Shown: piece by piece, positions 1,352-23,277 of the stretch
Layout of the letters: every line of letters starts with the position of its first letter
Position numbering within the stretch: the first letter of the stretch is position 1
Source: Niallia sp. XMNu-256
GTDB lineage: Bacteria > Bacillota > Bacilli > Bacillales > Cytobacillaceae
Reading direction: 5' to 3'
Assembly (NCBI RefSeq): GCF_036670015.1
Contig: NZ_CP137636.1
Span: 1,714,501-1,778,500 of the forward strand
DNA length: 64,000 nt
Translations under genes and position numbers: made by a program
The notes under the pieces: generated by a model
Databases searched by the model: none
Told to the model about the DNA's origin: nothing
Seen by the model: the letters and a program-made list of their open reading frames with translations, nothing else

Positions 1352-1371
1352 AAGTGATAATCAGCAATTGA

Positions 1372-1499: not shown

Positions 1500-1597
1500 T
1501 CTTTATCATATTAATATGTGAATAGTTACACAAATTTTTCTAAGAAAGAAGCGGCAAGTATGAATTTTATAACTTTACCGAAAATAGGAGGAACATA

Positions 1598-2447: not shown

Positions 2448-5400
2448 ATGAACATGAAGCCAGGGCCTAAGGCAATATATGAATTTCTATTATCAAAAAA
2501 AGAAAAAAAAGCAAATGTCACTGAAATTATTGAACAATTACCTAAGCTTTATCTTAAAAAAGAAAAAATAGAACGGTTGGCGAATTTGCATTCCGATACT
2601 TTTATTCTGGATGAGGATCAATTATCGATATCGCAACAGGAGGTTGCAGTAACAGAAAATGAAGAAAACGCTGAGAAATCTAAAAATGTGGGCCCATATA
2701 TAAAACGCCGTTCTCTCTTAGTGAATGACTTAGAAAAACTATTTGTTGGGCCATTAGAAGAAAATGAGATATTAGGAAAAAGAAAGCCACCTATGTCCTT
2801 CTATTTAACTGGAAAATTAGCTCCTTATGGTTCCACTTTTGAAGTTATAAATGAAGAAGAAAATGATATTAAAACAAAAGAACTTTTAAATACAGAAGGC
2901 ATTGATGAAATGCTCTCAAATCGCAACCCATTCCGGCCTTCCTCAATGGGATTTAGTTTTCGAATGAAGAAGCTTGTGCTTATTACCGTCTCAACTTCAT
3001 GGGGAACATATGATGATGAGGACCATAAGCGCACAAAGGTAGAAAAAGAATTTACGTTTATCCCAGAAACAAAAGAATTTCATCTGCAAGAACCTGGAGT
3101 TTTAAAGTGTAAAGTAAGAGAAAGAAATGGAATTTATCATGTGAGCTTATTTTTAATGAATGAGTATAAAAGGGATTCCTACCCACTTCAAAGTGAAGTT
3201 ATGTTTCAAACAAAACTTTTGATTTCTTTCAACGCTGATGCGGCAGCTGCTTTTTCATCTAAAGCAGATAAATGGAATTATGAAGATGAACTCTTATACC
3301 GTCACGTAAAAGAGTATGCCATTGGTCATGGAGTTGGAGTTAACTATAAGATCAAATCAGGGGTTTGTACCATTCAATCTGATTGGTTGCCTTTATATGA
3401 ATTACCATCAGTTGAACATCGAAGCATTGATGAGTTAAATGTGAAAATGATGGACTTAGCTTCAATGCCACCCAAAAAACTAAAAGAAAACTTGTTAATG
3501 ATACCGGAAACTTATCGTAACTGGTTACAAAAGCAAAGAGATCAAGTGGGTGATTTACCGTTGCATTTGCAGGATGTAGCCAATGAAAATATTAAACAAG
3601 TTGAAAAAATAATCCGTCGAATCGAATCAGGCATTGATACGATTACTGATTTAGGAAATCCATTTGAATATAATGCCTTCCAATTTGCTAATAAAGTAAT
3701 GGCGATGCAGCAAGCGCAATCTGGCGTGGCTCTACATTATCGTAATAAAAAAGAACGAATTGAGCCTTCTTATAAAGGAGAATGGCGTTTATTCCAGGTC
3801 GCGTTTTTTCTGATGAATATCAACGGAGTCAGTGACTTCGAGCACGAAGATCGTCAACTTGTTGATTTATTATGGTTCCCAACGGGTGGAGGAAAGACCG
3901 AGGCATATCTTGGAATCGCGGCATATCTAATGGGATTAAGACGTTTAAAAGGCTTTGCGGAGGAACCTGAATCATATGCTGGTGTGACCGTATTCATGCG
4001 CTATACGTTACGTTTATTAACAACTCAACAATTTCAGAGAGCAACGACCATGATTTGTGCGGCTGAAACCCTTCGAAGGGAAGATCCCGAAATATGGGGA
4101 ACAGAACCATTTCGAATTGGCCTTTGGATTGGACAATCTTCCACACCAAATAAATTTGAAGAAGCTCAGGAAAAGTTAACAGAAATTTTGCAAGGGAATG
4201 AAGTGCAAGAAGGAAATCCGATGCAGCTGGAGCATTGCCCATGGTGCGGAACAGAGCTAACTGTATATGATTACCATGTGACATCTAATAAACAAATGAT
4301 TGTATGCTCTAATCATCAATGTGAATTTTCAAAAGATGATGGTATCCCAGCTTTAACGATTGATGAAGGTATTTATAATTATGTTCCGACTATTGTCATC
4401 GGGACAGTCGATAAAATTGCACAAATCGCATGGAATAAACGATTGGGTGAGTTATTTGGAAAAAAGACACATTACAGCCCGATTGAAGGATTTGTCAATG
4501 ATCTAAATTATAAACAAAGCCATCGAGTAAATGGACGAATGATTCGAACGAAGAGAATTCATAATCTTATCCCACCAGAGTTAATTATTCAAGACGAATT
4601 ACATTTGATAAGTGGACCACTAGGCTCATTAACTGGATTGTATGAGATTGCTGTTGATTACTTATCTCAATATCAAGGAGCCGGACCTAAAATCATTGCA
4701 TCTACAGCGACGATACGTGGAGCAAACGAACAAATTAAACGTTTATATGGTAGAGAAGTATCCCAGTTTCCACCTTCAGTGTTAGATGCTAGAGAGTCGT
4801 TTTTCTCTGAAGAAATCCCGGTGGAGAAAAAGCCGGGTCGTTTATATATAGGTGTTTGTGCACCTGGTGTCAGTGGTTCCATTCATACGATACATGCTTA
4901 CTCGGCTTTATTAGCATCTATGAGAAAAGAAGAGCCAGACTTTTCATTTGACCCATACTGGACTGTCCTCGGTTATTTTAATACCGTAAAAGAATTATCA
5001 GGTACTACGACTAAATTGAAAGATGAAATTCCAATTCGATTAAAATTGATTAGTCAAACGAAGCGTGATTGGGATGATCTGCATACAGAAGAAATGATGA
5101 GTGGAAAGAAGGCAACCGAAATTCCAAAACTCTTGTCATTAATGGAACGAAGTTATGATGAAGAGGGAGCATTGGATGTAGTTTTAGCGACAAATATGAT
5201 TTCCGTCGGTGTCGATGTAAACCGTCTAGGCGTAATGGTGATGCACAATCAGCCTAAAACAGCTTCGGAATATATACAAGCAACAAGCCGCGTCGGTCGT
5301 AAATACCCAGGATTAGTATTAACGTTATTTAATTCTCTACGTTCAAGAGATTTATCTCATTATGAAAGATTCCTATCATTTCACGAAGCGATGTATCGAC

Positions 5401-5822
5401 ATGTCGAATCAACGAGTGTGACATCTTTTGCACAAGGTAGTCGTGATCGAGGGATGGAAGGATTAGTTGTTGGGATGATTCGTCAAGCCCATGAAAACTT
5501 AGGAAATGAAACAAGTGCGATTCATTTTAAGAAAGACGCTGTGACAAATGAGATTCTGAACTTTATTTGTGAGCGAGCTCAAGCAACAGGTGAGATTAAT
5601 CGTGATGAAATAAAAAGTGAAATCGAGGAAATCTATGATTGGTGGGAAAAACAAACACTGGAACATGAAAAGTTATCCTATCGTCAAAATCAATATCGTA
5701 AAGTGCATTTATTAAGAGACTTTAATGAAAAAACACCATATAAAGAAGCACGACCAGCTTTAAATTCATTAAGAAATGTTGAATCCGAAATTGAAGTAAT
5801 TGAGGTGAGAAACTATGAATAA
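2448..5822 (+). CDS. drmA: DrmA-like helicase (DISARM type)
   Basis: DrmA is the large helicase of DISARM phage defence and works with DrmB. The start chosen is ATG 2448, directly after GGAGGAGG, giving 1124 residues, the usual DrmA size. The first 60 residues look like a winged helix. Residues near 75-120 carry the family signature of a Lys/Gly-rich segment, KLFVGPLEEN, then SFYLTGKLAPYG. Walker A is PTGGGKTEA at about 479-487. A four-cysteine zinc ribbon (CPWC ... C ... C) lies near 595-630. The DEAH-box equivalent is QDELHLISGP near 716. The C-terminal helicase lobe has ATNMISVGVDV and YIQATSRVGRKYPG at about 910-955. It overlaps drmB by 8 bases, so the two are translationally coupled. drmC and drmMI are not next to it. 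BREX type 3 genes lie downstream instead. Confidence 0.88.
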   Translation: MNMKPGPKAIYEFLLSKKEKKANVTEIIEQLPKLYLKKEKIERLANLHSDTFILDEDQLSISQQEVAVTENEENAEKSKNVGPYIKRRSLLVNDLEKLFVGPLEENEILGKRKPPMSFYLTGKLAPYGSTFEVINEEENDIKTKELLNTEGIDEMLSNRNPFRPSSMGFSFRMKKLVLITVSTSWGTYDDEDHKRTKVEKEFTFIPETKEFHLQEPGVLKCKVRERNGIYHVSLFLMNEYKRDSYPLQSEVMFQTKLLISFNADAAAAFSSKADKWNYEDELLYRHVKEYAIGHGVGVNYKIKSGVCTIQSDWLPLYELPSVEHRSIDELNVKMMDLASMPPKKLKENLLMIPETYRNWLQKQRDQVGDLPLHLQDVANENIKQVEKIIRRIESGIDTITDLGNPFEYNAFQFANKVMAMQQAQSGVALHYRNKKERIEPSYKGEWRLFQVAFFLMNINGVSDFEHEDRQLVDLLWFPTGGGKTEAYLGIAAYLMGLRRLKGFAEEPESYAGVTVFMRYTLRLLTTQQFQRATTMICAAETLRREDPEIWGTEPFRIGLWIGQSSTPNKFEEAQEKLTEILQGNEVQEGNPMQLEHCPWCGTELTVYDYHVTSNKQMIVCSNHQCEFSKDDGIPALTIDEGIYNYVPTIVIGTVDKIAQIAWNKRLGELFGKKTHYSPIEGFVNDLNYKQSHRVNGRMIRTKRIHNLIPPELIIQDELHLISGPLGSLTGLYEIAVDYLSQYQGAGPKIIASTATIRGANEQIKRLYGREVSQFPPSVLDARESFFSEEIPVEKKPGRLYIGVCAPGVSGSIHTIHAYSALLASMRKEEPDFSFDPYWTVLGYFNTVKELSGTTTKLKDEIPIRLKLISQTKRDWDDLHTEEMMSGKKATEIPKLLSLMERSYDEEGALDVVLATNMISVGVDVNRLGVMVMHNQPKTASEYIQATSRVGRKYPGLVLTLFNSLRSRDLSHYERFLSFHEAMYRHVESTSVTSFAQGSRDRGMEGLVVGMIRQAHENLGNETSAIHFKKDAVTNEILNFICERAQATGEINRDEIKSEIEEIYDWWEKQTLEHEKLSYRQNQYRKVHLLRDFNEKTPYKEARPALNSLRNVESEIEVIEVRNYE

Positions 5823-7524
5823 GGTTATTGGAAAGCTCCGTCCGTCTCAATTAATTCAATATCATGCTCCTGGAGCGATTGCCGATCTAATTGAAGATAG
5901 TGTCATGATTACAGCGGCAGATGATTGGAGAATTCCATATACTAATAAAATACATGAACAACGATTGGAAGGGTTTCTGGGTGTTTCTCATCTGAAGTTG
6001 ATCAATGATCAAGAAGATAAAGTGAAAGTGACGGCAACTCCTTTTCCGAAATGGAGAATTTGTCCAACTTGTGGCATGATGGATCCTTATGCGAGTAAAA
6101 CATGTTATTACTGTGAAAAACAAGATCATAAGGAGATTAAATTATATCCCGCAAGGTTTATTACCGTTTGTGAAAAAGGACATATCAGTGATTTTCCATG
6201 GGTTGAATGGGTTCATGAAGGGAAAGAATGTACAAGTGATAAACCAGTGTTAAAGTATGAATCGAAAGGTAATGCAGGTTCTTTATCTGATATTAAAGTC
6301 ACTTGTGTTAAATGCTGGAAACCTAGAACATTAGGAAAAGTGATGAAAAAAGATGAGTTGCAAAAAGTTTTGCCTAACTGTACTGGAGACAGGCCATGGC
6401 TCAATGACCAAGAGGAATGTCATGAGGACATGCAAACTTCGATACGTAGTGCATCAAATATTTATACACCTACAATTACAAGTGCTTTATCAATTCCTTT
6501 AGAAGAAGGGATGGAAGATGAACTACAAGTAAAAGTAGAAGAATTTCGAGGTGGGATTACGAATTTAATCAGTAGTATTCCCGTTGAAGATGTGTTAAAA
6601 CAAGCGATTTGTGGAATGTTGTCTATTCCGCTTCAACAATATGATCGTGCTATGAAATATTATCATCGTGAAGGACAATTTTTTACATTTGACTCGATTC
6701 GTAAACAGGAGTGGGGAACCTTTCTACGAAGAAATGTTGACGATCGCTACGAGACGGGCTTTCTATCAAAAGAAGTGCCTGTTCCTAAAGAGTTAGAGGA
6801 ATATTTCCAATCCATTATTAGGGTAGATAAGCTTCGTGAGATTCGTGTTTTACGAGGATTTAATCGACTGTATTATCCAGATCCATTTTCAGAAGAAAAA
6901 CATGACATATTGCCGATTATGAAGTCTAAACAAGACTGGTTGCCGGCTATTAATGTATTTGGGGAAGGAATTTTCTTTGAGTTTAACCTATCAAAGTTAT
7001 TAGAATGGGAGAGTAACCCGTTGGTAGAAGGGGAAGCGGAGAAAATCATTGAACGATATAATCTCCAGAGAGAACAATTTGGATATAATTCAAGAGCTTT
7101 ACAACCAAGGCATGTATTAATTCACTCTTTTTCACATATGATGCTGAAAGAATTTGCAGCCCACTCTGGTTATGCAACTACAGCACTAAGAGAGCGATTG
7201 TACTGTAGTGATGAGATGGCAGGAGTCCTGATTTATACGGCTTCCTCAGATTCTGAAGGTAGTTTAGGTGGATTGATTGAATTAACATCTTCTGAAAAGC
7301 TCGTTCCTATTTTTCTTCGTGCATTAGAGAAAATGGAGTATTGCTCTTCAGATCCACATTGTGCAGATGGTGATTTCAAGATGCAAACGGCTATTAATGG
7401 AGCAGCGTGTCATTCTTGCAGTTATGTCTCAGAAACATCCTGTGAATGGAATAATCAACTGTTAGATCGAAGAATGTTAACTCCACTAATTGATTATGAA
7501 GAATTAGCTTATTTTTATATTTGA
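5815..7524 (+). CDS. drmB: DrmB-like DUF1998 protein
   Basis: DrmB carries the DUF1998 domain and is the constant partner of DrmA in DISARM. The N-terminus has the family signature LRPSQLIQYHAPGAIADL, then a DDW motif near residue 37. A zinc ribbon uses Cys83, Cys86, Cys97 and Cys100, with further cysteines after it. The C-terminal DUF1998 region (about 440-555) contains VLIYTASSDSEGSLGG, a CSSDPHC motif, then NGAACHSCSYVSETSCEW, all metal-binding in appearance. At 569 residues the length is normal. The start ATG overlaps the end of drmA. A strong bidirectional terminator follows at 7546-7593, separating it from the convergent sigma-like gene. In DISARM, DrmAB forms a complex on DNA. Here it presumably cooperates with the BREX genes downstream, which is an inference. 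Confidence 0.88.
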   Translation: MNKVIGKLRPSQLIQYHAPGAIADLIEDSVMITAADDWRIPYTNKIHEQRLEGFLGVSHLKLINDQEDKVKVTATPFPKWRICPTCGMMDPYASKTCYYCEKQDHKEIKLYPARFITVCEKGHISDFPWVEWVHEGKECTSDKPVLKYESKGNAGSLSDIKVTCVKCWKPRTLGKVMKKDELQKVLPNCTGDRPWLNDQEECHEDMQTSIRSASNIYTPTITSALSIPLEEGMEDELQVKVEEFRGGITNLISSIPVEDVLKQAICGMLSIPLQQYDRAMKYYHREGQFFTFDSIRKQEWGTFLRRNVDDRYETGFLSKEVPVPKELEEYFQSIIRVDKLREIRVLRGFNRLYYPDPFSEEKHDILPIMKSKQDWLPAINVFGEGIFFEFNLSKLLEWESNPLVEGEAEKIIERYNLQREQFGYNSRALQPRHVLIHSFSHMMLKEFAAHSGYATTALRERLYCSDEMAGVLIYTASSDSEGSLGGLIELTSSEKLVPIFLRALEKMEYCSSDPHCADGDFKMQTAINGAACHSCSYVSETSCEWNNQLLDRRMLTPLIDYEELAYFYI

Positions 7525-7545
7525 TCTGTTCCTATTTATAAAACT

Positions 7546-7593
7546 ATAAAGTCATGATTCTTGTTATGCAAAGTTCAAGAATCATGACTTTAT
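7546..7593. terminator. bidirectional terminator, drmB / sigma-like gene
   Basis: An 18-bp inverted repeat, ATAAAGTCATGATTCTTG at 7546-7563 and its complement at 7576-7593, encloses a 12-base loop. T-rich ends occur on both strands. It sits between the convergent drmB and sigma-like genes and touches the stop codon of the latter. Confidence 0.85.
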
Positions 7594-10139
7594 TATGAAA
7601 GATCCTCACTATGATAACCGTTTCTTTGAAAATATTCTTTTGCTGTTATTAAAGCTTTTTGTTCAATTTGTCTTATTCTTTCTCTCGTAACACCATATAG
7701 TTCACCAATTTGTTCAAGTGTATGTTCTTTTCTATGGTGGTTCATCCCAAACCGAAGCTTTATAACAGATGAAGGAGGAATGGATCTGTTTTTCTTGTCT
7801 AAATAAGTCCACAAACCAATCCAGAAATCTTTATCCCACGAGTCATAGATATCTTCAATCATTAAATTTGAAAAAGTTGTGTAATCTGGCTCGGACACGT
7901 CAATAAAATCTGAAGTAGCTTTCGACATTCGATAAGTCTCTAAGTCACTTGGTTTAGAAAAATAAGAGAAGATATACCCGCGAATGGAGTCATCCTCGCA
8001 GTTTTCGAATTGGCTTTCATATAAGTATAATTCTTCTAAGCTTATATAATTTGTTTTAAACAATGTATAGTCATCCATAATATTATTATCGATATGAACA
8101 TATCCATCTAAAAGTAACTGCATCTCTGCTTCTTTATCAAATTTTTCCAGTTCTTCTATTCTATGAACGGGGATACGGATTAGATTTTTTTTGTTTTGCC
8201 TGTATCGTTTGAAGGCAGCACTTAAATATATTTTGAAATATCTATAAAAGCTATTTTTATTAGAAGGTTTATAGTTTTTATACGCTTTTTTCAATGCGAA
8301 ATAAGCTTGTTGAATATAATCTTCCAGTGGAATTTCATTAGAAGCGTATTTTTTAGCGTATCGGTAAATATTATGAGCATAAATCGTCCAGGCCCGTTCT
8401 AGAAATGCTGTTTCATCCATATACATATACATATACATTTCGTTCGTTAAACGTCTTGGATTTTTTTGAGCTACGATAGCAAGATCCCTAAAATATTCCG
8501 CCATTGATTTAACTTTTTGAGGAATATGTTTTGTTGTTTTATATTTCTCTTGATTAATTGTTTGAATGGAATGAATCGCTTTTTCGATATTACCCTTTTT
8601 CCATTTTGCAGGATTGAATATCCAAAAACCCTTCTGTTGTGGTACTTTTTCAAAATATGGTTGCCCAGAAAGTGTTGCTGTAATACTATTTTCGGCATAA
8701 GGTACTTCTTTTTTTACTAATTTAATAATCTCGGAGACATGTAAACCAGAAGGATGATAGATTAATGTTTCCGTTACTATTTGTAATAGGGATTTTTCTG
8801 TTAGTTGATTTTCCTCTGCTAGCCTGGCAATGTCTAAATATCGTTCCTGTTCTTTTACCCGTGCTTCATTTACATGGCTAATTTTTAATGTTAATCGACC
8901 GTCTTCCATTTGAAAATGCAATTGTTGACCAGGAACGATGGCATAATCACTCATAAGATTTTCAAGATGTGTTCCATGAAGAATATTATGAGAACGATCA
9001 TAAAAAAATGTAAGATTTAAAGTTTCGCTATTATCTATTAAATTGACGTGCAGTTCGTCAGCTGTTATCCAATCTTTAAAATAATGAGCGGCTATTGTTT
9101 CTTGAATCCGATCATAATATCTAACCGTATAAGAAAGAGATGTACGCGTTTGATTTTGTCTAGATGTTGCTACAGAAGTATTCGTAATCTCATCTACTGC
9201 GATAGGGGAAGGGAGTTTTTCAATCTTTTGATCGAGTAAGGATGTATCAGTTACACCCTGTAAGAGAGTTTTTTCTATAATCGTTACATCCTCGTTTTCG
9301 ATAAACATAAAACTGTCACCATGTGATGTCAATCGAATAGAAGGAAATTGCTGTAAATGCTCCCTCACAGACAGAAAGTAAGCAGGAAACTTGGGATAAT
9401 GTACCTCGATATTGAAGACAGCTTTAATCAATGAGCGAATTTTCACTTCTTCACCATATTGATTTTTTAAATAAGTAACTAATTTAGGTGTACTACGGGC
9501 AACTTCCTCCCGAATATAGCTTGTAACTTCTGTTGATAAAGAATGTAGGTTTGATTCATCATATGATTTGAGGGATACTTTCCCGTTACTTTTTACCGTA
9601 AATCGATTATCAAAGTGAGGAAAAAAGAATGCATTTGGATCAGAAATTTGATAATGTTCTTTAATCACTCGAACAGCCTCGAATATCGAAATATTTTCAA
9701 TATGTTCTTTTATAAAAAGTTGTAGGGCTAAGTCGTTGATTAGATTCCATTCGCTTAAAAGAATATATTTTTCACTAGCTTCCGTTTCCATAATAGTAAA
9801 ACGAGGATCCTTAAATAAATTACTTATTTGATATAAAGGATTTCTAAGCTGTTGTTTCATAGGAACTTTAGAATGGAAAAGTGTATCATATAATTCATCC
9901 AAATGGCTGCAATGGGACTGCTTCCTTTGATAATGCTGTTCCTCTACTTCTTCATAATAAAACCCAGCATTAAGCGCAACATCTAACACATATCTAGCAT
10001 CTTTTTCACTTGTGCCAGCACCATGTGCCCAGTTTACTCGAAGGTAATCAACAATGAGTCTGTAATGTAGAGGACTTCCTTGTTCTAAAAAAGCCTTATT
10101 AATTAGGGAAATATTACTAATAACAGGGCCGTTTTTCAC
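7593..10139 (-). CDS. sigma-70-like protein with HARE-HTH-like domains
   Basis: This is a large regulator of about 848 residues. The C-terminal third is clearly sigma-70-like. A region 2-like helical part (about 585-650) contains DYIQQAYFALKKAYKNY and a region 2.4-like stretch. IRIPVHRIEELEK follows near 654-666, matching region 3.0. Region 4 lies at about 795-835 with the helix-turn-helix TLEQIGELYGVTRERIRQIE. The N-terminal 540 residues are unusual for sigma factors. Winged-helix segments resembling HARE-HTH lie near 10-70 and 450-508 (IYHPSGLHVSEIIKLV ... FWIFNP). It probably directs RNA polymerase to, or otherwise regulates, the island. The GTG at 10139 is eight bases after AGGAAG. The other GTG at 10148 overlaps that site. 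It is divergent from brxF across 245 bases. A similar role could also be that of an RNA polymerase-binding co-regulator. Confidence 0.8.
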   Translation of the reverse strand: MKNGPVISNISLINKAFLEQGSPLHYRLIVDYLRVNWAHGAGTSEKDARYVLDVALNAGFYYEEVEEQHYQRKQSHCSHLDELYDTLFHSKVPMKQQLRNPLYQISNLFKDPRFTIMETEASEKYILLSEWNLINDLALQLFIKEHIENISIFEAVRVIKEHYQISDPNAFFFPHFDNRFTVKSNGKVSLKSYDESNLHSLSTEVTSYIREEVARSTPKLVTYLKNQYGEEVKIRSLIKAVFNIEVHYPKFPAYFLSVREHLQQFPSIRLTSHGDSFMFIENEDVTIIEKTLLQGVTDTSLLDQKIEKLPSPIAVDEITNTSVATSRQNQTRTSLSYTVRYYDRIQETIAAHYFKDWITADELHVNLIDNSETLNLTFFYDRSHNILHGTHLENLMSDYAIVPGQQLHFQMEDGRLTLKISHVNEARVKEQERYLDIARLAEENQLTEKSLLQIVTETLIYHPSGLHVSEIIKLVKKEVPYAENSITATLSGQPYFEKVPQQKGFWIFNPAKWKKGNIEKAIHSIQTINQEKYKTTKHIPQKVKSMAEYFRDLAIVAQKNPRRLTNEMYMYMYMDETAFLERAWTIYAHNIYRYAKKYASNEIPLEDYIQQAYFALKKAYKNYKPSNKNSFYRYFKIYLSAAFKRYRQNKKNLIRIPVHRIEELEKFDKEAEMQLLLDGYVHIDNNIMDDYTLFKTNYISLEELYLYESQFENCEDDSIRGYIFSYFSKPSDLETYRMSKATSDFIDVSEPDYTTFSNLMIEDIYDSWDKDFWIGLWTYLDKKNRSIPPSSVIKLRFGMNHHRKEHTLEQIGELYGVTRERIRQIEQKALITAKEYFQRNGYHSEDLS

Positions 10140-10384
10140 TAATGTCACTTCCTAAACAAATACATTTTAGTATAACTTCGACATAATCTCCAAAAAACCT
10201 TTGTTTTTCAGAGGAAATGGGGGATTTGATAAGAAGTAAAAATAAAATGTATCGATTTTTATATATCGATTGAACTAGTCATTTTTTACTATTTGATTCA
10301 TAATAAATGTAAAAGTTAATTATTTCATTTATGATAGTAGTAAGAAACAAATAAATAAATTAATGATAAAAGGTTGTATCATAA
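10140..10384. promoter_or_regulatory. divergent control region, sigma-like gene / brxF
   Basis: This 245-base AT-rich spacer must contain promoters for both directions. Two direct copies of TATCGATT lie at 10250-10257 and 10264-10271, each with the palindrome ATCGAT. An imperfect palindrome, TCATAATAAATG ... CATTTATGA, lies around 10299-10336. Either could be an operator. No -10/-35 pair was firm enough to place. Confidence 0.45.
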
Positions 10385-10825: not shown

Positions 10826-10839
10826 GGGGGAAAGACGAG

Positions 10840-14538: not shown

Positions 14539-14554
14539 CGAGGAGGAAGGAAGC

Positions 14555-17341
14555 TTGTCAAAAGATCCAAAGCAAATAACATTTATTCACGAGAGTACCC
14601 AAACAGACAACGGTCCCGTTGTCTGTTTGGGCATGACATTTGAAAATGATGAAGCAAGACGGGAATATTTTCGTAATGAATTAAGAAAGAAATTACCGGA
14701 TTTAAAACAAATCGAGGGATTTCCGATTGGGGAAGATGAGGATATTATTACGTTATCCGATCCACCTTATTATACATTATGTCCAAATCCTTGGATGAAT
14801 GATCTTATAGAGGAATGGGAGTCGAATAGAGGAGCAAAAAAGGAAGTAAATCAAGCACTAGCTATTGATGTAAGTGAAGGAAAAAATGATCCAATATATG
14901 TAGCACATACTTATCATACTAAAGTGCCTTATAGAGCTATTATGAGATATATGCTTTATTACACAAACCCAGGTGATATAGTTTATGATGGTTTTGCAGG
15001 AACTGGAATGACTGGTGTAGCAGCAGAAAAATGTCAAGATAGTGAACTCGTTAGAAAATTGATGGGCGATGATTATTCGGAAGAAATAGTTGGAAAACGA
15101 AATGCCGTATTGATTGATCTAGCACCTGCTGCTACTTTTATCGCTCAAAATCATTCAAAAAAAACCAAGTTGCCTGAAACACATGATATTCTGAGAAAGG
15201 TTATAAATGAATTAAAAACCGAGTACAATTGGTCAGTGTCTACTCTTGGATCAACTTTGGCGAAAGTCCCGGGTAAGAGTCTTAATGATACGTACACAAT
15301 GTATACTTCTTATTTTGGTGAAATAAACTATGTTATTTGGAGTGAGCTTTATCAGTGCTCGTCATGTAATCAAGAGTTAAACTATTGGGACGCTACTGTT
15401 GAGGAGCAAGACGGAAAAGACGTAAACAAAGAATTGGTTTGCTATCATTGTGGTGCAAAATTAATAAAAAGAGATCTTGAAAAAATCTTTATTTCTCATT
15501 TTGACTATGTTGCAAATAAAATAGTAAGAGTTCCAAAGGTTGTTCCAGTAAGAATTAATTATTCATATAAAGGAAAAAGATTCAACAAGAAGCCCGATTG
15601 GTATGATCTTGAAGTCTTTAAGTGGTTTGAAAATTACTCGGGATATTCAAAAATCACAAAAATGAAGTTTATTGAAGGTGTAGAGACAAGTAGACCTGTC
15701 AGAAATGGATTATTCTATTTCCATCAAGTTTATACGTATAAAAACTTAAGTTTACTTGATAAATTTTTAGAGTTAAGTGATGGAACAGGTAAGGAGAATG
15801 AAGCTCAGTTTTTATTAGGCAGTGCAATATCTCGATTGTCTAAATTTAATCGATATATGCCTCAGCATAATCGACATGTTGGTCCAATGGCGAATGCATT
15901 ATATCTTCCATCTTTATCTGTAGAAATCAATCCAATCTCGCAACTTGAATTGCAGTTAAATAAATTGTTAAATGCTTGGTCTGAAAATCAATATTCAGGA
16001 AATGTTTTATCTACTCAGAGTAGTACGAGTTTACCAATTAAGGATAATTCAATAGATTATATTTTTATAGACCCACCTTTTGGTGCAAATATTATGTATT
16101 CTGAATTGAATTTTATTAGAGAAGCTTGGTTGAAAGTGTTCACCAATAATAAAAAAGAAGCAATCGAAAATAAGGCTCAAGGAAAAACTTTAGGAGATTA
16201 TACTGATTTAATGCTCGAATCCTTCCGGGAAGCATATAGGATACTAAAACCAAATAGTTGGATTACTGTAGAATTCTCAAATACTTCAGCTAGTGTTTGG
16301 AATGCTATTCAGTACGTAATTCAGAATGCTGGATTTGTTATAGCTAGTGTAGATGCTTTGGATAAAAAACGTGGTGGATTCCATGGGATTATAACAACAA
16401 CAGGGGTAAAACAAGATTTAGTAATCTCAGCATATAAGCCTGCTGATGAAAGCATAATTCAAATGAAATCAGAAAGAAATACGGTCGCTTCGGCATGGAC
16501 CTTTATTAATCAGCACTTGAAAAAGTTACCTGTATTTACAGGTGTTAAGGGAAATGCATCGATTATTTTAGAGAGAACACCAAGAATTTTATATGATAGA
16601 ATGATTGCCTATCATGTCCAAACTGGCTTGCCTATACCTATAAATGCTTTAGATTTTCAAAAAGAGCTTGCACAACGTTACTCAATGCGTGATGGTATGG
16701 TGTTCTTGGAATCTCAAGTTGCTGAATATGATCGAAAAAGAATATTGGCAAAAGATTTTGTTCAACAAACTCTTTTTGTTTCAGATGAAACCAGTGCCAT
16801 TGAATGGATTCGTCAACAGCTTCTAAAGAAGCCACAAACCCGTCAGGATATTCAACCAAACTTTATGATAGAAATTCAACATATTGCCAAACACGAATTA
16901 CTCCCAGAATTAGATGATTTATTACATCAAAACTTTTTAAGATATGATGGTGATGGCAATGTTCCAGACCAAATCGTTTCCTATTTAAGAAGGAACTACA
17001 AAGATTTACGTGGTTTAGAGCCTGACGATCCGGCTGTAATAGATAAGGCAATAAATCGTTGGTATGTTCCAGATCCAAATAAACAAGCCGATTTAGAAAA
17101 ACTTCGTGAAAAAGCCTTGTTACGTGAATTTGATGGGTATATCGAAGAGTTAGAAAAGAGCAAGAAAAAGCTAAAGCAATTCCGAACAGAGGCGATTCGA
17201 GCTGGGTTCAAAAAAGCTTACGGTGAGAAGGACTTTGAAAAAATTGTAAAAGTCGGGGATCGACTTCCTGAAAGCATTATTCAAGAAGATGATAAATTGC
17301 TAATGTATTACGACAATGCGTCTATTCGATTAGGATTATAA
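14555..17341 (+). CDS. pglX: PglX-type DNA methyltransferase, BREX type 3
   Basis: This is the BREX modification enzyme, expected to transfer methyl from AdoMet to an adenine (N6) in a specific host site. It has 928 residues and starts at TTG 14555, eight bases after GAGGAGG. The motif SDPPYYT (68-74) precedes the AdoMet-binding loop DGFAGTGMTG (145-154), an order typical of N4/N6 methylases. A second acidic motif, IDPPFGANIMYSE, lies at about 505-517 and is followed by a helix and strand pattern of a methylase core. A zinc ribbon (CSSC ... CYHC) lies near 268-308. The C-terminal 200 residues are charged and helical and may contact DNA or partners. It is followed after 12 bases by pglZ. Target sequence cannot be read from the DNA. 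Confidence 0.86.
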   Translation: MSKDPKQITFIHESTQTDNGPVVCLGMTFENDEARREYFRNELRKKLPDLKQIEGFPIGEDEDIITLSDPPYYTLCPNPWMNDLIEEWESNRGAKKEVNQALAIDVSEGKNDPIYVAHTYHTKVPYRAIMRYMLYYTNPGDIVYDGFAGTGMTGVAAEKCQDSELVRKLMGDDYSEEIVGKRNAVLIDLAPAATFIAQNHSKKTKLPETHDILRKVINELKTEYNWSVSTLGSTLAKVPGKSLNDTYTMYTSYFGEINYVIWSELYQCSSCNQELNYWDATVEEQDGKDVNKELVCYHCGAKLIKRDLEKIFISHFDYVANKIVRVPKVVPVRINYSYKGKRFNKKPDWYDLEVFKWFENYSGYSKITKMKFIEGVETSRPVRNGLFYFHQVYTYKNLSLLDKFLELSDGTGKENEAQFLLGSAISRLSKFNRYMPQHNRHVGPMANALYLPSLSVEINPISQLELQLNKLLNAWSENQYSGNVLSTQSSTSLPIKDNSIDYIFIDPPFGANIMYSELNFIREAWLKVFTNNKKEAIENKAQGKTLGDYTDLMLESFREAYRILKPNSWITVEFSNTSASVWNAIQYVIQNAGFVIASVDALDKKRGGFHGIITTTGVKQDLVISAYKPADESIIQMKSERNTVASAWTFINQHLKKLPVFTGVKGNASIILERTPRILYDRMIAYHVQTGLPIPINALDFQKELAQRYSMRDGMVFLESQVAEYDRKRILAKDFVQQTLFVSDETSAIEWIRQQLLKKPQTRQDIQPNFMIEIQHIAKHELLPELDDLLHQNFLRYDGDGNVPDQIVSYLRRNYKDLRGLEPDDPAVIDKAINRWYVPDPNKQADLEKLREKALLREFDGYIEELEKSKKKLKQFRTEAIRAGFKKAYGEKDFEKIVKVGDRLPESIIQEDDKLLMYYDNASIRLGL

Positions 17342-17353
17342 GTTGGTGATAAT

Positions 17354-19288
17354 ATGAGTAGTTGGCGCGAGGAAGTTTTAAAGAAATTTCAGAATTTGAA
17401 CAGTGCTTTGGTTTTAGTATATGATATGGATTATTTGTTAAATGATGAGGAAATTGTCGATGTGTTAAAAGCATTGGGATATGAGATTTTTCGTTTTGAG
17501 GATAGTGTCTCATTTCGCTATCTATATGAGCAACATTATCGAAATCTAGAGGATCAATGGAAACTCATTGTTTATAGCAACGAGGACCTTGTATTTCCAT
17601 ATGAGTTTTTACAAAAAGGTTTTCTTCTTCATCTTCATATTGGTTCCATTTTTCCAAAGTTTTCTGCGCCAATCCTACGAAGTATGAATCGAGAGAATTT
17701 TGATGCCTTGTTTACTGTGCACACGCAGTATCAAGGCTCTTCTTCTGAAAGGGAAACGTTGGATTATATCGTAAAGCGGTTGTATAAGATCCCATATGAA
17801 TTGATTGATAGTGAAGTTGAACTGTATAAATTATTGCTTTCTCTTCATTATGGTCAAAAGGAAATGCCTGAGGTCGTACAAACTTTTTTGTTTGAGAAGT
17901 TTGAAAAAATAGCCGTTTTTAAGGATTTACCGTTAAAGGAAATGATTTCTTCGTCAGCTTCATTCTATAGCTTTGTAGAAAAACAGTGGGCTTCTTTAGT
18001 AGCTGATACGATCGCGACACAAAATGGACAGGCTTTAGAAAAAAGAGAGGACTATCAGTCACATCCTTTTGCCAATCATGATATACGTCGTTTGATGAAT
18101 GATTTATTTCTGGAAGGATTGTTAGCAAAAGCAAAAGATGTCCCGATAGAGCTCGTTCCAGATTGGATGAAAACGGGAATTGAAGAAAAGGGTACTTATG
18201 AAGAAATGGTTCAAAAACTGAAACATATCAGCGAAAAAATTGAGCATAAGCTTTCAACGATAAAATGGTATAAAGATTGGCTTGAATTGGCAGATTTAGT
18301 GGCCGAATATAGATATACGGTATTGGAAAGTGCGGATGCTGGATACAATCAAGAGACAGAAAAGTTGATGGTGAAAGTCAATAAACGTTTTCAAGAGTGG
18401 ATGCTCCATCAGTATCACACGTTAACAAGCTTGCCCCCATTTCCAAAACCGAAAATGGTTCACCATATCCCGCACACCGTTCATGCTCATAAAGCTGATG
18501 GAGAGAAAGTAGCTCTACTCGTTTTAGATGGAATGAGTTTTGTGCAATGGAAACAAGTGAAAAACGATTTGAAGAAACATGGTTTTGCTTTTGAAGAAAG
18601 TGGAGTTTTTGCGTGGGTGCCTACACTTACATCTGTTTCACGACAGGCGATCTTTTCAGGAAATGTTCCTTACACCTTTGGTAATCGTATTAAAACCACT
18701 TCCTCTGAAGAGAAATATTGGAAGGCGTTTTGGGAAAGTAAAGGAATCTTAAAACAATATATAGCGTATCAGCGAGGATTAGGGAGAGAAGAATATAATC
18801 CCCAGCATATTCATGCGTTAAAGAGAAGTTCGGTAAAAGTATATGGTGCTGTAATTGATGTGATTGACCAATTTACACATCATGCCGTTCTTGGTGAAAA
18901 AAGTCTTGTTTCAAATTTAACTCTTTGGCTAGAAAGCGATTATTTAGTACAATTATTATTAGATTTAATGGCTGAAAAATTTACGATTTATATCACTTCA
19001 GATCACGGGAACACAAATGCAATAGGAATAGGCCGGATTTCCGAAGGTGTTTTAGTGGATCAAAAGGGAGAAAGAGTTCGGATTTATAGTGATCGTACAC
19101 TATATGCTGATTCTTTGTCTAAAGTCGATGCTATTCCTTGGAGCAATATTGGCCTTCCTGATGATTATTATGTTCTCTTGTCCCAGTATGGTGAAGCTTT
19201 TGTATCAAAAGGAGAGAAAGTTGTGACCCATGGTGGAATAAGTCTTGAAGAAGTGATTGTACCCTTTGTTAAGGTGCAGCAGAAATAA
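17354..19288 (+). CDS. pglZ: PglZ, alkaline-phosphatase-fold BREX protein
   Basis: PglZ is the hallmark protein of BREX. The 644-residue product has the PglZ domain in its C-terminal half: LLVLDGMSFVQW around Asp392, a Thr/Ser-rich loop (PTLTSVSRQAIFSGNVP) near 419-435, SDHGNTN around Asp550-His551, and THGGISLEEVIVPF around His626. These residues are the metal ligands of the alkaline phosphatase fold, and all are present. The N-terminal half is helical and lacks a known motif. It starts at ATG 17354, 12 bases after pglX. In other BREX types PglZ is essential, can act as a nuclease or phosphodiesterase, and links methylase to BrxC. Confidence 0.9.
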   Translation: MSSWREEVLKKFQNLNSALVLVYDMDYLLNDEEIVDVLKALGYEIFRFEDSVSFRYLYEQHYRNLEDQWKLIVYSNEDLVFPYEFLQKGFLLHLHIGSIFPKFSAPILRSMNRENFDALFTVHTQYQGSSSERETLDYIVKRLYKIPYELIDSEVELYKLLLSLHYGQKEMPEVVQTFLFEKFEKIAVFKDLPLKEMISSSASFYSFVEKQWASLVADTIATQNGQALEKREDYQSHPFANHDIRRLMNDLFLEGLLAKAKDVPIELVPDWMKTGIEEKGTYEEMVQKLKHISEKIEHKLSTIKWYKDWLELADLVAEYRYTVLESADAGYNQETEKLMVKVNKRFQEWMLHQYHTLTSLPPFPKPKMVHHIPHTVHAHKADGEKVALLVLDGMSFVQWKQVKNDLKKHGFAFEESGVFAWVPTLTSVSRQAIFSGNVPYTFGNRIKTTSSEEKYWKAFWESKGILKQYIAYQRGLGREEYNPQHIHALKRSSVKVYGAVIDVIDQFTHHAVLGEKSLVSNLTLWLESDYLVQLLLDLMAEKFTIYITSDHGNTNAIGIGRISEGVLVDQKGERVRIYSDRTLYADSLSKVDAIPWSNIGLPDDYYVLLSQYGEAFVSKGEKVVTHGGISLEEVIVPFVKVQQK

Positions 19289-19302
19289 GGAGAGGATACT
19301 TG

Positions 19303-20019
19303 ATGAAAAAGCCTGTTGGATTCGATCAAAAGGTCTTATTACATCAATTAGATTTTACAGCACATCATACAAAGAAATCTTCTCGAAGTGAGATGTATGA
19401 ACTTTTAGATGGATATTTACGTAATGATATTACAGGAGCAAAGTCAAGGAAAAATGCGATTACCATGTTAATGAAAATTTGGTATTTAGTCGATCCCGAC
19501 ATGGTGCCAGTTCGCGATAAAATGTTAGAGATATTCTCTTCCTTATCAAAAGAAGAACGACTTTTAGTTCATTGGGGAATGACTCTAGCTGCTTATCCCT
19601 TTGTTAAAGATTTAGCGTATGTATTTGGCAAGTTATTTCGCTTACAAGATGTAGTAGCTAGTGTAGAAGTTGGAAAGAGAATGAAGGAAGCGTATGGAGA
19701 CCGGCGCCGGGTGGAAGTTGCGACAAGTGCTGTCTTGATGAGTATGAAATCATGGGAAGTCCTACTTCCAGAAAAAAAACGTTCTTATCGCTTACATTCA
19801 ACCATTGCAATCCAACATCCTGACTTACAAGCTTTTATTATCCAAGTGCTATTACAAGTATTAGAAAACACATCTTTGCAGCTAGATATGATTCAAAATC
19901 ATCCGCTGTTTTTTCCATTTTCGTATGATTTAAATGTGCTTGAATTACGTGAAAAAAGTGAATTCGCTTTTTATCGACAAGGAATAGATACGCTGGTCGT
20001 TGAGCGAAGTGTAGGATAA
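19303..20019 (+). CDS. helical protein in BREX operon, possibly BrxA-like
   Basis: This 238-residue protein starts at ATG 19303, after AAGGAGAGG (a TTG lies just before), 14 bases after pglZ. I see no catalytic motif. It is mainly alpha-helical, with LLDGYLRNDITGAKSRKN at about 29-46 and a central helix-rich block ending LSMKSWEVLLPEKKR. BrxA, a small helical nucleic-acid-binding BREX protein of about 200 residues, has a similar order of helices and is otherwise missing from this locus. That makes a BrxA equivalent likely by elimination, but sequence similarity is too weak for a firm name. A terminator follows immediately at 20024. Confidence 0.55.
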   Translation: MKKPVGFDQKVLLHQLDFTAHHTKKSSRSEMYELLDGYLRNDITGAKSRKNAITMLMKIWYLVDPDMVPVRDKMLEIFSSLSKEERLLVHWGMTLAAYPFVKDLAYVFGKLFRLQDVVASVEVGKRMKEAYGDRRRVEVATSAVLMSMKSWEVLLPEKKRSYRLHSTIAIQHPDLQAFIIQVLLQVLENTSLQLDMIQNHPLFFPFSYDLNVLELREKSEFAFYRQGIDTLVVERSVG

Positions 20020-20023
20020 ACGG

Positions 20024-20059
20024 AACCTTATTCAAAAAATGGATAAGGTTTTCTTTTTA
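20024..20059 (+). terminator. terminator between BrxA-like gene and helicase
   Basis: AACCTTATTC at 20024-20033 pairs with GGATAAGGTT at 20041-20050 (one G-T pair), followed by TTCTTTTT. This is a standard intrinsic terminator placed inside the defence operon, before the helicase. Confidence 0.75.
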
Positions 20060-20076
20060 TAGACGGAGGGGTGCTT

Positions 20077-23000
20077 ATGCTAGGAATAGGCGATATCATA
20101 TCCAGCTCATATTTCCCAGAAAGTGTGGAAATTAAAAAATGTGAAGTTTTTGTAGATTATTACATCATTAAGGCAATTGGACAGGAAACAAATCAATATT
20201 ACGAAATTATGTTAGAAAAAGAAAAAATACAAGATTTTACACGCTTGAATCGAGAAAAGGATTCTTTAACGATATCCTCAATCGACGTGCAAAAATACTT
20301 GCAATATTTACATATGAAAAATGAGATGAAGTTTTCAAAAACGAGAGCACTGGGCAATAAACAATTATTGCCATTGCCACATCAAATTGAAGCGGTTTAT
20401 AGCCGAATGCTTCAAGTTCCTCAAGTTCGTTTTTTACTAGCTGATGATCCTGGAGCCGGGAAAACGATTATGGCGGGGATGTTGATAAAAGAATTAAAAG
20501 CAAGGTTGGGTATTGAGCGAGTTCTAATTCTTGTTCCACCGCTAGTACTAAAACAGTGGCAAGAGGAATTAGAACAAAAATTTGACGAGTATTTTCATAT
20601 TATTAATCGAGCCACAATAAAGGAATATGGGGGGAAGAATCCCTTTATCGCGAATGGTTTTTGTCTCGCTTCTATGTATTGGGCTTCAAGAGAAGAGATA
20701 AAAGCTCTTATTCAAGAAGCCCAATTTGATCTAGTGATTGTTGACGAAGCACATAAGATGGCTGCTTATACACACGGTACAGTAAAAAGAAAAACGTTTC
20801 GAACAAAGTTATATCAATTGGGGGAATCATTGTTAAAAAAGACCCATCATTGCTTATTATTAACCGCGACACCGCATAAAGGAGATTCTGAAAACTTCCG
20901 ACATTTAATGAGGTTAATTGATGAAGATATTTTTTCTAACAAGTCGAATGAAAGCTTAAAAGAAAAAACAAATCCATTTATTATTCGACGATTAAAAGAG
21001 AATCTCAAAAACTTTGATGGGTCTCCAATATTTCCAAGACGGACCACTAAAACAATTCAATACCAATTAACAGATGAAGAACTAGCACTTTATGAAGCTG
21101 TAACAGAGTATGTACAAAACTACTATAATCGAGCGATTAATAATGGCAGTCAAAGTACGGCTTTTGCGATGATGTTACTTCAGCGCCGGCTCAGCTCATC
21201 GATTGATGCTATCTATCTTTCGTTAAAGAGAAGGTACAAGAGGTTATATAAGCTTTATAAGCAAACGGAAGAAGAGCGTCAAAAGTTTATGCGAAAAATA
21301 AAATCGGTAGATACCGAGAATTATTTGGAAGAAGGAAGTGAGATTCAGGAACAACTTGAAAATCAATTTGAACAGTCCATTGATGTGATTGATCCAAAAG
21401 AGTTGAAAAAGGAATTATTGATATTGAAAAAGCTCATTCAACAGGCGGAAAATATTAAACTCTATGCTGTTGAAAGAAAGTATCAAGAACTAGAGGACAC
21501 TCTATTTGGTCCAAGTGGACTTTTAAATCATAATGAAAAAATCCTTATCTTTACAGAAGCAGCTGATACGTTGAACTATTTAGAAGAAAAGTTGTTAAAA
21601 CGGGTTTCCAGAGTGGCTAAAATCGTAGGAAGTTTTTCAATGGATCAACGTAGGAAACAAGTTGAATTATTTCGCAATGAATGTCAAATTATGATTGCAA
21701 CAGACGCAGGTGGGGAGTCCATCAACCTTCAATTTTGTAACCAAATGATTAATTATGATATTCCATGGAATCCAAATAAACTGGAACAACGAATGGGGCG
21801 TATTCACCGGATTGGACAAAAAAATGAAGTCTTTGTTTTTAATTTAGTCGCGCAAAATACACGAGAGGGTAGTGTTATGACTAAGTTATTAGAAAAAATG
21901 GAATTAATGAAGTCTGATCTAGGTTCTGATGCTGTTTATGATTTTATAGGGGAAATATTAGAGGATCATTATGATAGTTTAGCTGATTTAATGCAACAAG
22001 CAATCCTACATCGTGAGAATTTAGATGACATTATAGCTGATATGGATAAAACATTGTCCCAGGAACATAGAAATCTTTTGAGAGTTATGGAAGAGGAGAA
22101 AATGATCGAAGATATTGTGGATCTTCCGGAACTAAGGCGTGAAAAGAATACTCTTTCAGTCCAAAGAATTCCTCCGAGGGCATACACGGATTTAACGACT
22201 TATGTCTTTGAAAAAAAACGTGTTCGAGTGTTGAAGTCCCAAGACGAAAAAGTGATGCGGATTGAGAGATTACCAAAATTTATCCGTGATTATCTTCCGG
22301 AACTACAGGATTATCAGGGAGAAAGCTATCGTTTTACGAATTCATTAGAATTTGAATCGGAAGAAGTTCCAATGATCAATGAAAGTCATCCATTATTTCA
22401 GGTGAGTCTCCAGTTGATGAAAAAAGAAAATGAAGGAAAGGATTGGCAACATTACACCGTTTCAGCTAATGTTCCGGAAAAGCTCCATGTAGAAGTTTAT
22501 CATGTTCGTATTGTTGATGGGACAGGAAAAGAATTAGAAAATGAATATATTCATTTAGCTAAACGCAGTAATGGAGATGTGATTCCAATCGATCCATATT
22601 GGTTATTTGCCAATGAATTTCTGGATCAATCATTTAGCGTAGAAACGAGTGTAACGAATCAATGTACAAATGAGATCTTTAAAGAGTCTATTACGATTCG
22701 GGATAAAGTCTTATCCAAAAGAGAGAAGCAATTGGATAAGATGGTTGCGTTTTTAGAGAAGTCATTTAATCAACAGTATCGTGATACCCTGGAACGATTG
22801 GAAAAATACCAACAAGAAAACATCGATAATCGCAATAGTGCATTAATCAACCAAATGAATGCCCAACTGATTGATATAGATATGAAGAAAGAGCAACGAC
22901 TGACGACGATCCAGCGTCAGAAAAATATTTCGATGAAACCTCCGAAGAAAATTATTTCTTTAGAAGTTCTTCCATCAGCTAACTGTGATCGGGTAATTGC

Positions 23001-23277
23001 TGTTGATTATTTTGATGTAGTATTGAACTATGAAAGGGAAAATGGTCGTTTAAATGTTAGGATGTTTAATAATTTAAGTTTAGTTGATTTTTATAGCGAG
23101 CGGTTTAATGGGGAAGAACGATATATCATCTTAACTGAAAACGAACAATTTATTCCAGGTGGGTTTTATTTGGAAGATTTACATGACATTTTAGAGAAGG
23201 TTTATATTTATGTCGTAAGGAACGGGGAGGTAGTTAGTGAGAAGGCGATGAAAGATGAAATCGTTTTTTGGAGATGA
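20077..23277 (+). CDS. brxHII: SNF2-family helicase, BrxHII/DrmD type
   Basis: SNF2-like helicases of about 1000-1100 residues serve as BrxHII in BREX type 3 and as DrmD in DISARM class 1. This one has 1066 residues from ATG 20077, behind GGAGGGG (a GTG at 20071 overlaps that site). The N-terminal about 100 residues are a beta-rich unit. Then comes LPHQIEAVYSRML (about 98-110), Walker A DDPGAGKT at 123-130, VDEAHKMAAY with DEAH at 223-226, TATPHKGDSENF near 265, TDAGGESINLQF near 545, and motif VI QRMGRIHRIGQ at 571-581. The C-terminal 400 residues are coiled and basic. It would translocate on double-stranded DNA. A single helicase may serve both the DISARM-like and BREX-like parts. A decayed homologue of its tail follows at 23419. 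Confidence 0.85.
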   Translation: MLGIGDIISSSYFPESVEIKKCEVFVDYYIIKAIGQETNQYYEIMLEKEKIQDFTRLNREKDSLTISSIDVQKYLQYLHMKNEMKFSKTRALGNKQLLPLPHQIEAVYSRMLQVPQVRFLLADDPGAGKTIMAGMLIKELKARLGIERVLILVPPLVLKQWQEELEQKFDEYFHIINRATIKEYGGKNPFIANGFCLASMYWASREEIKALIQEAQFDLVIVDEAHKMAAYTHGTVKRKTFRTKLYQLGESLLKKTHHCLLLTATPHKGDSENFRHLMRLIDEDIFSNKSNESLKEKTNPFIIRRLKENLKNFDGSPIFPRRTTKTIQYQLTDEELALYEAVTEYVQNYYNRAINNGSQSTAFAMMLLQRRLSSSIDAIYLSLKRRYKRLYKLYKQTEEERQKFMRKIKSVDTENYLEEGSEIQEQLENQFEQSIDVIDPKELKKELLILKKLIQQAENIKLYAVERKYQELEDTLFGPSGLLNHNEKILIFTEAADTLNYLEEKLLKRVSRVAKIVGSFSMDQRRKQVELFRNECQIMIATDAGGESINLQFCNQMINYDIPWNPNKLEQRMGRIHRIGQKNEVFVFNLVAQNTREGSVMTKLLEKMELMKSDLGSDAVYDFIGEILEDHYDSLADLMQQAILHRENLDDIIADMDKTLSQEHRNLLRVMEEEKMIEDIVDLPELRREKNTLSVQRIPPRAYTDLTTYVFEKKRVRVLKSQDEKVMRIERLPKFIRDYLPELQDYQGESYRFTNSLEFESEEVPMINESHPLFQVSLQLMKKENEGKDWQHYTVSANVPEKLHVEVYHVRIVDGTGKELENEYIHLAKRSNGDVIPIDPYWLFANEFLDQSFSVETSVTNQCTNEIFKESITIRDKVLSKREKQLDKMVAFLEKSFNQQYRDTLERLEKYQQENIDNRNSALINQMNAQLIDIDMKKEQRLTTIQRQKNISMKPPKKIISLEVLPSANCDRVIAVDYFDVVLNYERENGRLNVRMFNNLSLVDFYSERFNGEERYIILTENEQFIPGGFYLEDLHDILEKVYIYVVRNGEVVSEKAMKDEIVFWR

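Follow-up and report, generated by a model that had tools for sequence, protein, structure and literature searches.

A drmA-drmB-sigma cassette beside a type 3 BREX operon in Niallia sp. XMNu-256: apparently two neighbouring anti-phage modules

The described systems closest to the locus considered here are DISARM (defence island system associated with restriction-modification) and type 3 BREX (bacteriophage exclusion). The locus occupies positions 2448 to 23277 of a 64,000-nucleotide stretch of Niallia sp. XMNu-256 (NCBI RefSeq assembly GCF_036670015.1, contig NZ_CP137636.1, positions 1,714,501 to 1,778,500; hereafter the window, meaning the whole stretch analysed) and brings together the DISARM genes drmA and drmB, a sigma-70-like gene and a BREX operon. 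Passages of PMC9142583 describe DrmAB as kept inactive by a trigger loop, opening on DNA with a 5' overhang and repressed by methylation, with DrmC dispensable. The type 3 BREX core, as given in PMC12839542, includes brxHII, whose RapA-like product is present in 77% of type 3 taxa; the available main text of this survey mentions neither DISARM nor DrmA or DrmB. Excerpts of PMC9523054 place a sigma factor within another anti-phage system, MZA, and excerpts of PMC12458937 assign to ARMADA a YprA-family helicase, a BrxHII-like helicase and a PglX-like methylase ("sigma" occurs twice in this last source, the place shown being a reagent supplier's name). In the accessible portion of the open-access literature we found no description of drmAB with a sigma factor or of a drmAB/BREX-3 hybrid, and neither is described in the passages obtained from PMC8565338, PMC9716671, PMC13373217 and PMC9866893.

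The locus appears to consist of two adjacent anti-phage modules in a defence island, not of one fused system. Judged from its sequence, the first module would be a drmA-drmB-sigma cassette (2448-10148) and the second a complete type 3 BREX operon (10385-23277) that is predicted to work without the first. Each module occurs without the other, and the sigma-like gene marks the real unit of the left-hand part, its linkage to drmAB having been found in three genomes. The preliminary description of this DNA had read the whole as one composite DISARM-BREX system. It placed the bounds correctly, both at 2448, where the ATG is preceded by GGAGGAGG, and at 23277, and the genes that it named (DrmA, DrmB, the sigma-like gene, BrxF, BrxC, PglX, PglZ and the SNF2 helicase) are all present and intact by Pfam, PADLOC, NCBIfam and a motif check, but it missed brxA. 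The features of the locus are as follows.

2448-5822, plus strand: drmA, YprA-family helicase of DISARM (NF038325); the open reading frame opens at 2430, with the ATG and its ribosome site at 2448
5815-7524, plus strand: drmB, DUF1998/MZB zinc protein (NF038324; MZB 34 bits), overlapping drmA by 8 bases
7546-7593, no strand: perfect inverted repeat of 18 bp in the gap where drmB and sigma converge, a probable two-way terminator
7593-10148, minus strand: sigma-70-like gene, up to 851 amino acids, with Sigma70_r2 and Sigma70_r4 above the Pfam cut-offs
10140-10384, no strand: AT-rich intergenic region between the diverging sigma gene and BREX operon, presumed to hold the promoters of both
10385-10825, plus strand: brxF (NF033453 101 bits, cut-off 50), with no Walker A motif by pattern
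10840-14538, plus strand: brxC, DUF6079 ATPase (PADLOC 1367 bits; Pfam DUF6079 1285 bits), GTGKS intact
14555-17341, plus strand: pglXI (brxXI), type 3 adenine methylase (PADLOC PglXI 1131 bits), with FAGTG and DPPF motifs
17354-19288, plus strand: pglZ of type 3 (NF033449 614 bits, cut-off 250), DGM, SDH and HGG motifs intact
19300-20019, plus strand: brxA (PADLOC BrxA 166 bits)
20071-23277, plus strand: brxHII-type RapA-like SNF2 helicase, GAGKT and DEAH intact; a relative of 56-72% identity follows brxA in most related BREX-3 loci checked

Pfam, PADLOC and NCBIfam models were run on the nine genes between 2430 and 23277. Both members of the DISARM core pair exceed their NCBIfam cut-offs: DrmA scores 1028 bits against DISARM_DrmAS (NF038325; cut-off 950) and 532 bits against the solved DrmA chain of PDB 7s9v, with its GGGKT and DELH motifs intact by pattern check, and DrmB scores 486 bits against DrmB_fam (NF038324; cut-off 240). 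The locus therefore has the DrmA and DrmB families of DISARM classes I and II, but it differs from both classes in having no listed match to DrmC or DrmE and no dedicated methylase beside drmAB, where the sigma-like protein stands instead. The preliminary description had reported drmC and a DISARM methylase as absent. No match to the phospholipase D (PLD) protein DrmC, the third DISARM gene, is listed among the nine genes, the remainder of the genome not having been searched for it, and none to DrmE by Pfam or PADLOC; the other open reading frames of the window that were scanned gave one weak match to the DrmC model (E 2.6e-5), in the PLD part of the type IV enzyme at 31329-33758. In the right-hand part, all six core genes of type 3 BREX (brxF, brxC, brxXI/pglXI, pglZ, brxA and brxHII) stand together.

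A query of residues 1-580 of the sigma-like protein, which leaves out the regions common to sigma factors, had four matches in 328 genomes of the order, its own included. Two of the others are intact, in G1033 (41% identity, E 2e-121) and G941 (29%, E 5e-51), and both lie directly 3' of drmAB. The layout in G1033, with drmA and drmB on the plus and sigma on the minus strand, is that of the window, and the cassette is flanked there by open reading frames that look by eye like transposases; in G941 all three genes are on one strand and a gap of 12 bases separates drmB from sigma. Identity to the window over the whole length is 58% and 42% for DrmA, 50% and 36% for DrmB, and 41% and 29% for sigma in G1033 and G941, respectively. 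Each of the three copies has sigma-70 regions 2 and 4 that score above the Pfam cut-offs. The search of the 328 genomes of the order (E 1e-20) detected no BrxC in G1033 or G941, and since the intact sigma copies adjoin drmAB in these genomes, we conclude that drmA-drmB-sigma is a separate three-gene cassette. Among 48 genomes of the phylum with BrxC, the window's genome included, a full-length sigma was found in that genome only. A 40-residue DrmB fragment (L186:3731-3850), 70% identical to the DrmB of the window, lies beyond a transposase-like frame in G1033 and is a sign of rearrangement.

The BREX operon was likewise compared with its relatives. Searches with BrxC, own copy included, matched 60 of 398 genomes of the phylum (E 1e-3), 13 of 398 of the class (E 1e-20) and 7 of 328 of the order (E 1e-20), and 31 other BREX-3 loci were read, comprising 13 from the phylum (L052, L054, L055, L070, L071 and L084-L091) and all 12 and all 6 from the class and the order; L053 and L173, being of equal length, are apparently the same contig. 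DrmAB was present in the flanks (for every compared locus, the stretch available around it, the length of which varies between loci) of one of the 31, that of Salirhabdus euzebyi (G939; L117 and L178), and 23 of the 24 loci with at least 8 kb 5' of brxC are without it. The closest BrxC relatives found, in G785 (70%), G885 (66%) and G884 (56%), come from genomes with no DrmB match anywhere and with sigma matches, also sought genome-wide, that are C-terminal only and fall in RpoD-looking frames of 382-384 amino acids. The order brxF-brxC-pglXI-pglZ-brxA-SNF2 recurs in related loci, marking an operon of known type in a common local order.

Approached from the DISARM side, an alignment scan for DrmB in named genomes gave at least 80 loci, and among the 80 listed BREX-3 genes lie in the flanks of one, again that of Salirhabdus. 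Its genes run drmA, drmB, DrmC (383 bits), DrmMII (736 bits), a 1.4-kb gap, brxF, brxC and pglX, all in the same orientation; identity to the window is only 37% for DrmA and 34% for DrmB, which fall in another clade of the DrmA+DrmB tree, while it is 54% for BrxC. The Salirhabdus DISARM is of another lineage, and DISARM-BREX neighbours have therefore been met twice, in different forms. The co-occurrence of BrxC (60) and DrmB (21) in the 398 genomes of the phylum amounts to five genomes (G000, G080, G201, G298 and G362), against about three expected by independence; the DrmB matches in G201 and G298 are fragments, both matches in G362 are weak, and full-length matches to both are confined to the window's own genome and G080, in which DrmAB and BREX-3 are on different contigs whose ends share no 21-mers. 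Plasmid searches gave 85 records for DrmA and 7 for BrxC, with no accession common to the 40 DrmA records listed and the 7 for BrxC. A search of a viral contig collection with the BrxF and sigma-alignment queries found no relative, nor did one of a genome contig collection with DrmA.

The place of the window's DrmAB among its relatives was examined in a DrmA+DrmB tree of 86 of 100 rows, the other 14 having no DrmA open reading frame above 850 amino acids. The window, G1033, L094, L096, L097 and L098 form a clade with support of 1.0, within which the branching of the window with G1033 is poorly supported (0.38), and G941 lies outside it; the same sigma family therefore accompanies two distinct drmAB lineages, or has often been lost. 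Among the named loci listed, the closest DrmB proteins (about 45%; DrmA about 51%) belong to L095-L098 of Bacillus, Lysinibacillus and Paenibacillus, where drmAB occurs with a PLD-Snf2 helicase and type III Mod and Res genes, a DUF4391 gene also being present in L096 and the drmA of L095 being in pieces; the sequence of L094 (Halalkalibacter) ends after the helicase. This DISARM-like arrangement differs from the window by its PLD helicase, its DUF4391 gene and its type III restriction genes, and no sigma gene was seen in the flanks of these loci.

The sigma-like gene is convergent with drmB and divergent from brxF. Its likely start is the GTG at 10139, which is preceded by AGGAAG and aligns with the start of the G1033 copy. 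Regions 2 and 4 occupy residues 590-652 and 794-833, after a long DNA-binding-like N-terminal part, the TRERIRQIE of region 4.2 in the window matches RpoD, and the IRIPVH after region 2.4 is kept. In Foldseek, a low-confidence model of the full protein (predicted local distance difference test, pLDDT, 50.7) had as top matches chains of transcription-initiation complexes, presumably sigma factors (E 2e-6, TM-scores at most about 0.3), and a better model of residues 205-545 (pLDDT 67.1) matched best plant B3 DNA-binding domains (E 7e-4) and next forkhead winged helices (E 0.02 and weaker). The N-terminal part may carry winged-helix-like modules and a B3-like DNA-binding domain, the fold matches serving as leads and not as proof. 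B3-like domains are also present in some restriction enzymes. A HARE-HTH assignment of this part, suggested by inspection of the sequence, is not claimed; Pfam gave a Forkhead match alone, and that below its cut-off. Partial matches to residues 400-515, the possible B3-like part, were seen in frames of 651 and 662 amino acids in G111 (C67:6508-6855, 30%) and G083 (C52:7205-7546, 27%).

The window resembles MZA in having a sigma-70-family protein, like MzaA, inside an anti-phage locus. The likeness does not extend over most of the protein: PADLOC gave 46 bits for MzaA (best stretch, residues 794-837), and NCBIfam NF041931 gave 66 against a cut-off of 800 (793-834). MZA is not known to include DrmA or DrmB. 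Like ARMADA, the window has a YprA-family helicase near PglX-like and BrxHII-like genes, but these belong here to a BREX-3 operon with brxF, brxC, pglZ and brxA, and the YprA helicase of ARMADA is described as forming a clade of its own.

With all six core genes of type 3 BREX in common, the operon of the window differs in local order from some relatives: its helicase gene is last, whereas in five more distant loci (L054, L055, L085, L087 and L091) the helicase gene lies between pglX and pglZ. The helicase itself is RapA-like (E 2e-54), and it scores 1208 bits as DrmD in PADLOC and 388 as DrmD in NCBIfam, below the cut-off of 610. Among the loci used to place it (L052, L071, L072-L083, L174 and L176), the sequence continues for 1.5 kb or more past brxA in 11, and 9 of these 11, none with drmAB in its flanks, carry an SNF2 gene right after brxA. 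The gene thus fits BREX, and we do not accept it as the DrmD of DISARM, taking the PADLOC label to reflect homology and not membership. Against this placement, L076 and L174 (G785) have McrB and McrC after brxA instead, and in the distant loci L086, L089 and L090 the roughly 2 kb that follow brxA give no SNF2 match. Tools that find defence systems may misfile the locus, since drmA, drmB and an apparent drmD beside BREX look like a hybrid.

We give a probability of about 0.6 to the reading that two separate modules stand side by side, with the sigma-like protein as a built-in switch for DrmAB and BREX independent of it; the evidence is stronger for the division into two modules than for the mechanism. 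The N-terminal DNA-binding domains of the sigma-like protein would meet foreign DNA, and its sigma part would direct RNA polymerase to promoters of the cassette itself or of the phage, so that the level of DrmAB rises when phage DNA arrives. DrmAB is the core helicase complex of DISARM; in the solved system a loop keeps it inactive, and unmodified DNA bearing a 5' single-stranded end activates it. Binding of RNA polymerase, the switch, its target promoters, anti-phage activity and any help from PglXI to DrmAB are steps that we infer. With BREX-3 undetected in the other two cassette genomes, and one of them without a methylase in the flanks read, a DISARM core with a sigma protein offers a small three-gene unit for testing how DISARM recognises phage DNA and, with no linked methylase, spares its host.

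Several observations weigh against this reading. Only three intact cassettes were found, and the G941 genome has 8% contamination; the fourth sigma copy, in G1016, is interrupted by seven stops, and neither the 11 kb upstream of it nor the 7 kb downstream contains drmAB. None of 95 other DrmAB loci (15 plus the 80 listed; flanks of about 1-10 kb, at least one contig counted twice) showed the long sigma in its flanks, from which it follows that the cassette is rare, and in-genus searches found it at full length in its own genome only (1 of 9 and 1 of 4). The patch of region 2.2, which we take to be the contact with the RNA polymerase core, reads DLIQEG in RpoD, DLVQEG in G941 and DLYQEA in G1033 and has drifted to DYIQQA in the window; the stretch between regions 2 and 4 is unlike region 3, and both structural models described above are weak. 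No promoter motif common to the cassettes was seen by eye, and promoter-like sites in 1300-11000 are no commoner than in shuffled sequence (33 versus 39.5). The G+C content per gene (31.5-37%) does not separate the drmAB-sigma and BREX parts. BREX may also be under sigma control in this genome, a possibility raised by the divergence of sigma and brxF from one 245-base region.

A tentative alternative makes the sigma-like protein a DNA-reading subunit of DrmAB, with region 2 on opened promoter DNA and region 4 on the -35 element, placing the helicase on transcribed phage DNA without a methylation cue. The same-strand sigma gene of G941, 12 bases after drmB, allows this, as do the resemblance of part of the modelled N-terminus to DNA-binding folds (B3-like, E 7e-4; forkhead-like, E 0.02) and, in the window, a region 2.2 that is partly eroded beside a region 4 whose DNA-reading helix is kept. 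The models, however, are of low to middling confidence, and in the window and in G1033 the gene runs opposite to drmAB from a presumed promoter of its own, which is unusual for a fixed subunit. The opposite orientation in two of the three cases favours a regulator, which we rate above a subunit.

About as doubtful is the further idea that drmA-drmB-sigma is an undescribed system, with a large sigma-like protein in place of the DISARM methylase and nuclease. This DNA reader would recognise foreign promoters, or a sequence that its winged-helix and B3-like domains read, and would recruit or activate DrmAB, so that self and non-self would be told apart by transcription and not by methylation.

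The dedicated enzymes DrmMI and DrmMII were not found; PglXI is the only methylase among the nine genes, Pfam gave no DNA methylase in 20 other open reading frames of the window, and PF00145 gave no C5 methylase genome-wide, N6 methylases elsewhere in the genome not having been searched. By the same PF00145 search, 10 of 14 control genomes have a C5 methylase, as do G1033 and G941. In G941 it follows the cassette; in G1033 no methylase was detected within 11.5 kb upstream or about 17 kb downstream of drmB, and the first C5 methylase is met about 18 kb downstream, so that a distant partner is possible.

The preliminary description's single DISARM/BREX machine is improbable. In it, both parts would rely on PglXI to methylate self DNA, DrmD would be replaced by the RapA-like helicase, and sigma would control both from the region that it shares with brxF. 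As the only methylase found near drmAB, PglXI leaves room for a shared methylase: PF00145 finds no C5 methylase in this genome but does find one in 10 of 14 controls, and where the flanks of a DrmAB locus reach at least 9 kb to either side, the query set detects a methylase in 31 of 40 cases, a partner that PglXI alone could supply here. DISARM class I and ARMADA, according to excerpts of PMC12458937, both have a BrxHII-like helicase and a PglX-like methylase, and in Salirhabdus a DISARM set lies 1.4 kb 5' of a related BREX-3 in the same orientation. Against it stand the 30 of 31 other BREX-3 loci without DrmAB in their flanks (including those 23 with at least 8 kb upstream), the cassette of G1033 with no methylase in the range just given, the co-occurrence of BrxC and DrmB in five genomes against about three expected, with full-length matches to both in two, and the probable terminator between drmB and sigma. 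The repeat at 7546-7593 folds at -23.9 kcal/mol versus -6.9 in shuffles (z -7.5; 0 of 200 shuffles equally stable), and it was not among the predictions of a general terminator scan. On the 31 BREX-3 loci and the 80 listed DrmB loci, a composite was rejected as the leading explanation: BREX-3 relatives keep their gene order without DrmAB, drmAB-sigma stands without detected BrxC in G1033 and G941, and drmAB-sigma adjoining BREX-3 was seen only here. The search for shared gene order that the preliminary description had proposed yielded, from the BREX-3 and the DrmB side alike, a single locus, that of Salirhabdus with its different DISARM. That description had named uniqueness to this genome as evidence against itself, and among the genomes searched the arrangement is unique, the adjacency recurring once in another form; its remark that the exact gene set is unusual holds.

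Least likely of all is that drmAB is a worn-down DISARM remnant with sigma as a chance neighbour and BREX alone active, for which the missing drmC and usual methylase and the apparent UvrD and McrC fragments in the island's right half could speak, but neither drmA nor drmB is truncated, the motifs checked are intact, sigma adjoins drmAB in both other intact cases, and DrmC is dispensable according to passages of PMC9142583.

Other sigma genes near these systems were of different kinds. To judge by eye from their sequence and gene neighbours, those 5' of BREX-3 in L054 and L070 resemble housekeeping RpoD and SigH-type genes, and that of L055 (4269-8546; G120) forms a separate pair with a RecQ-like helicase; G085 has a sigma match at a similar distance from brxC. 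In an Anaerolineaceae metagenome-assembled genome (L115:13437-16915), a 504-amino-acid MzaA-like sigma gene (167 bits) is convergent with a DISARM operon and is followed by a UvrD helicase, and L099 has a weak sigma match (21.6 bits) about 7 kb from DrmAB. Sigma regions 2, 3 and 4 fused to a DpnI_C helix-turn-helix, followed by a DEAD-box helicase gene, were seen in L093 (11401-16073) on the Lactiplantibacillus plantarum plasmid NZ_CP028223.1, and a match of this type occurs in four L. plantarum plasmid records. In plasmids, the N-termini of the G941 and G1033 sigma proteins had no match, and the window sigma was matched from residue 574 onward only, in 8 records. A UvrD-like helicase pair lies 5' of drmA in the DISARM loci L117 (3203-6526, by family call), L103 (3228-6589) and L127 (3200-6609; both by eye), and also, by eye, near the broken G1016 sigma (L189:16572-19598).

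Around the locus, a ComK gene (1598-2158), which points to a Bacillus-like host, lies directly 5' of drmA, and to the right of BREX an SRA-HNH gene together with what look like pieces of UvrD and McrC (24292-28110) may be debris of older defence genes. The gene at 31329-33758 encodes a protein with PLD and ResIII helicase parts, which PADLOC classes as type IV restriction; relatives of 64-67% identity occur near drmAB in G1033 (L185:4203-6617), in G941 (L187:4-279, its end only) and in the DISARM locus L057, and any match to it was seen in 9 of 141 loci, 6 of these at 22-36%. An McrB and McrC pair occupies 34309-37918; the McrB and McrC directly after brxA in G785 (L174:9900-13479) are 57% and 54% identical to it.

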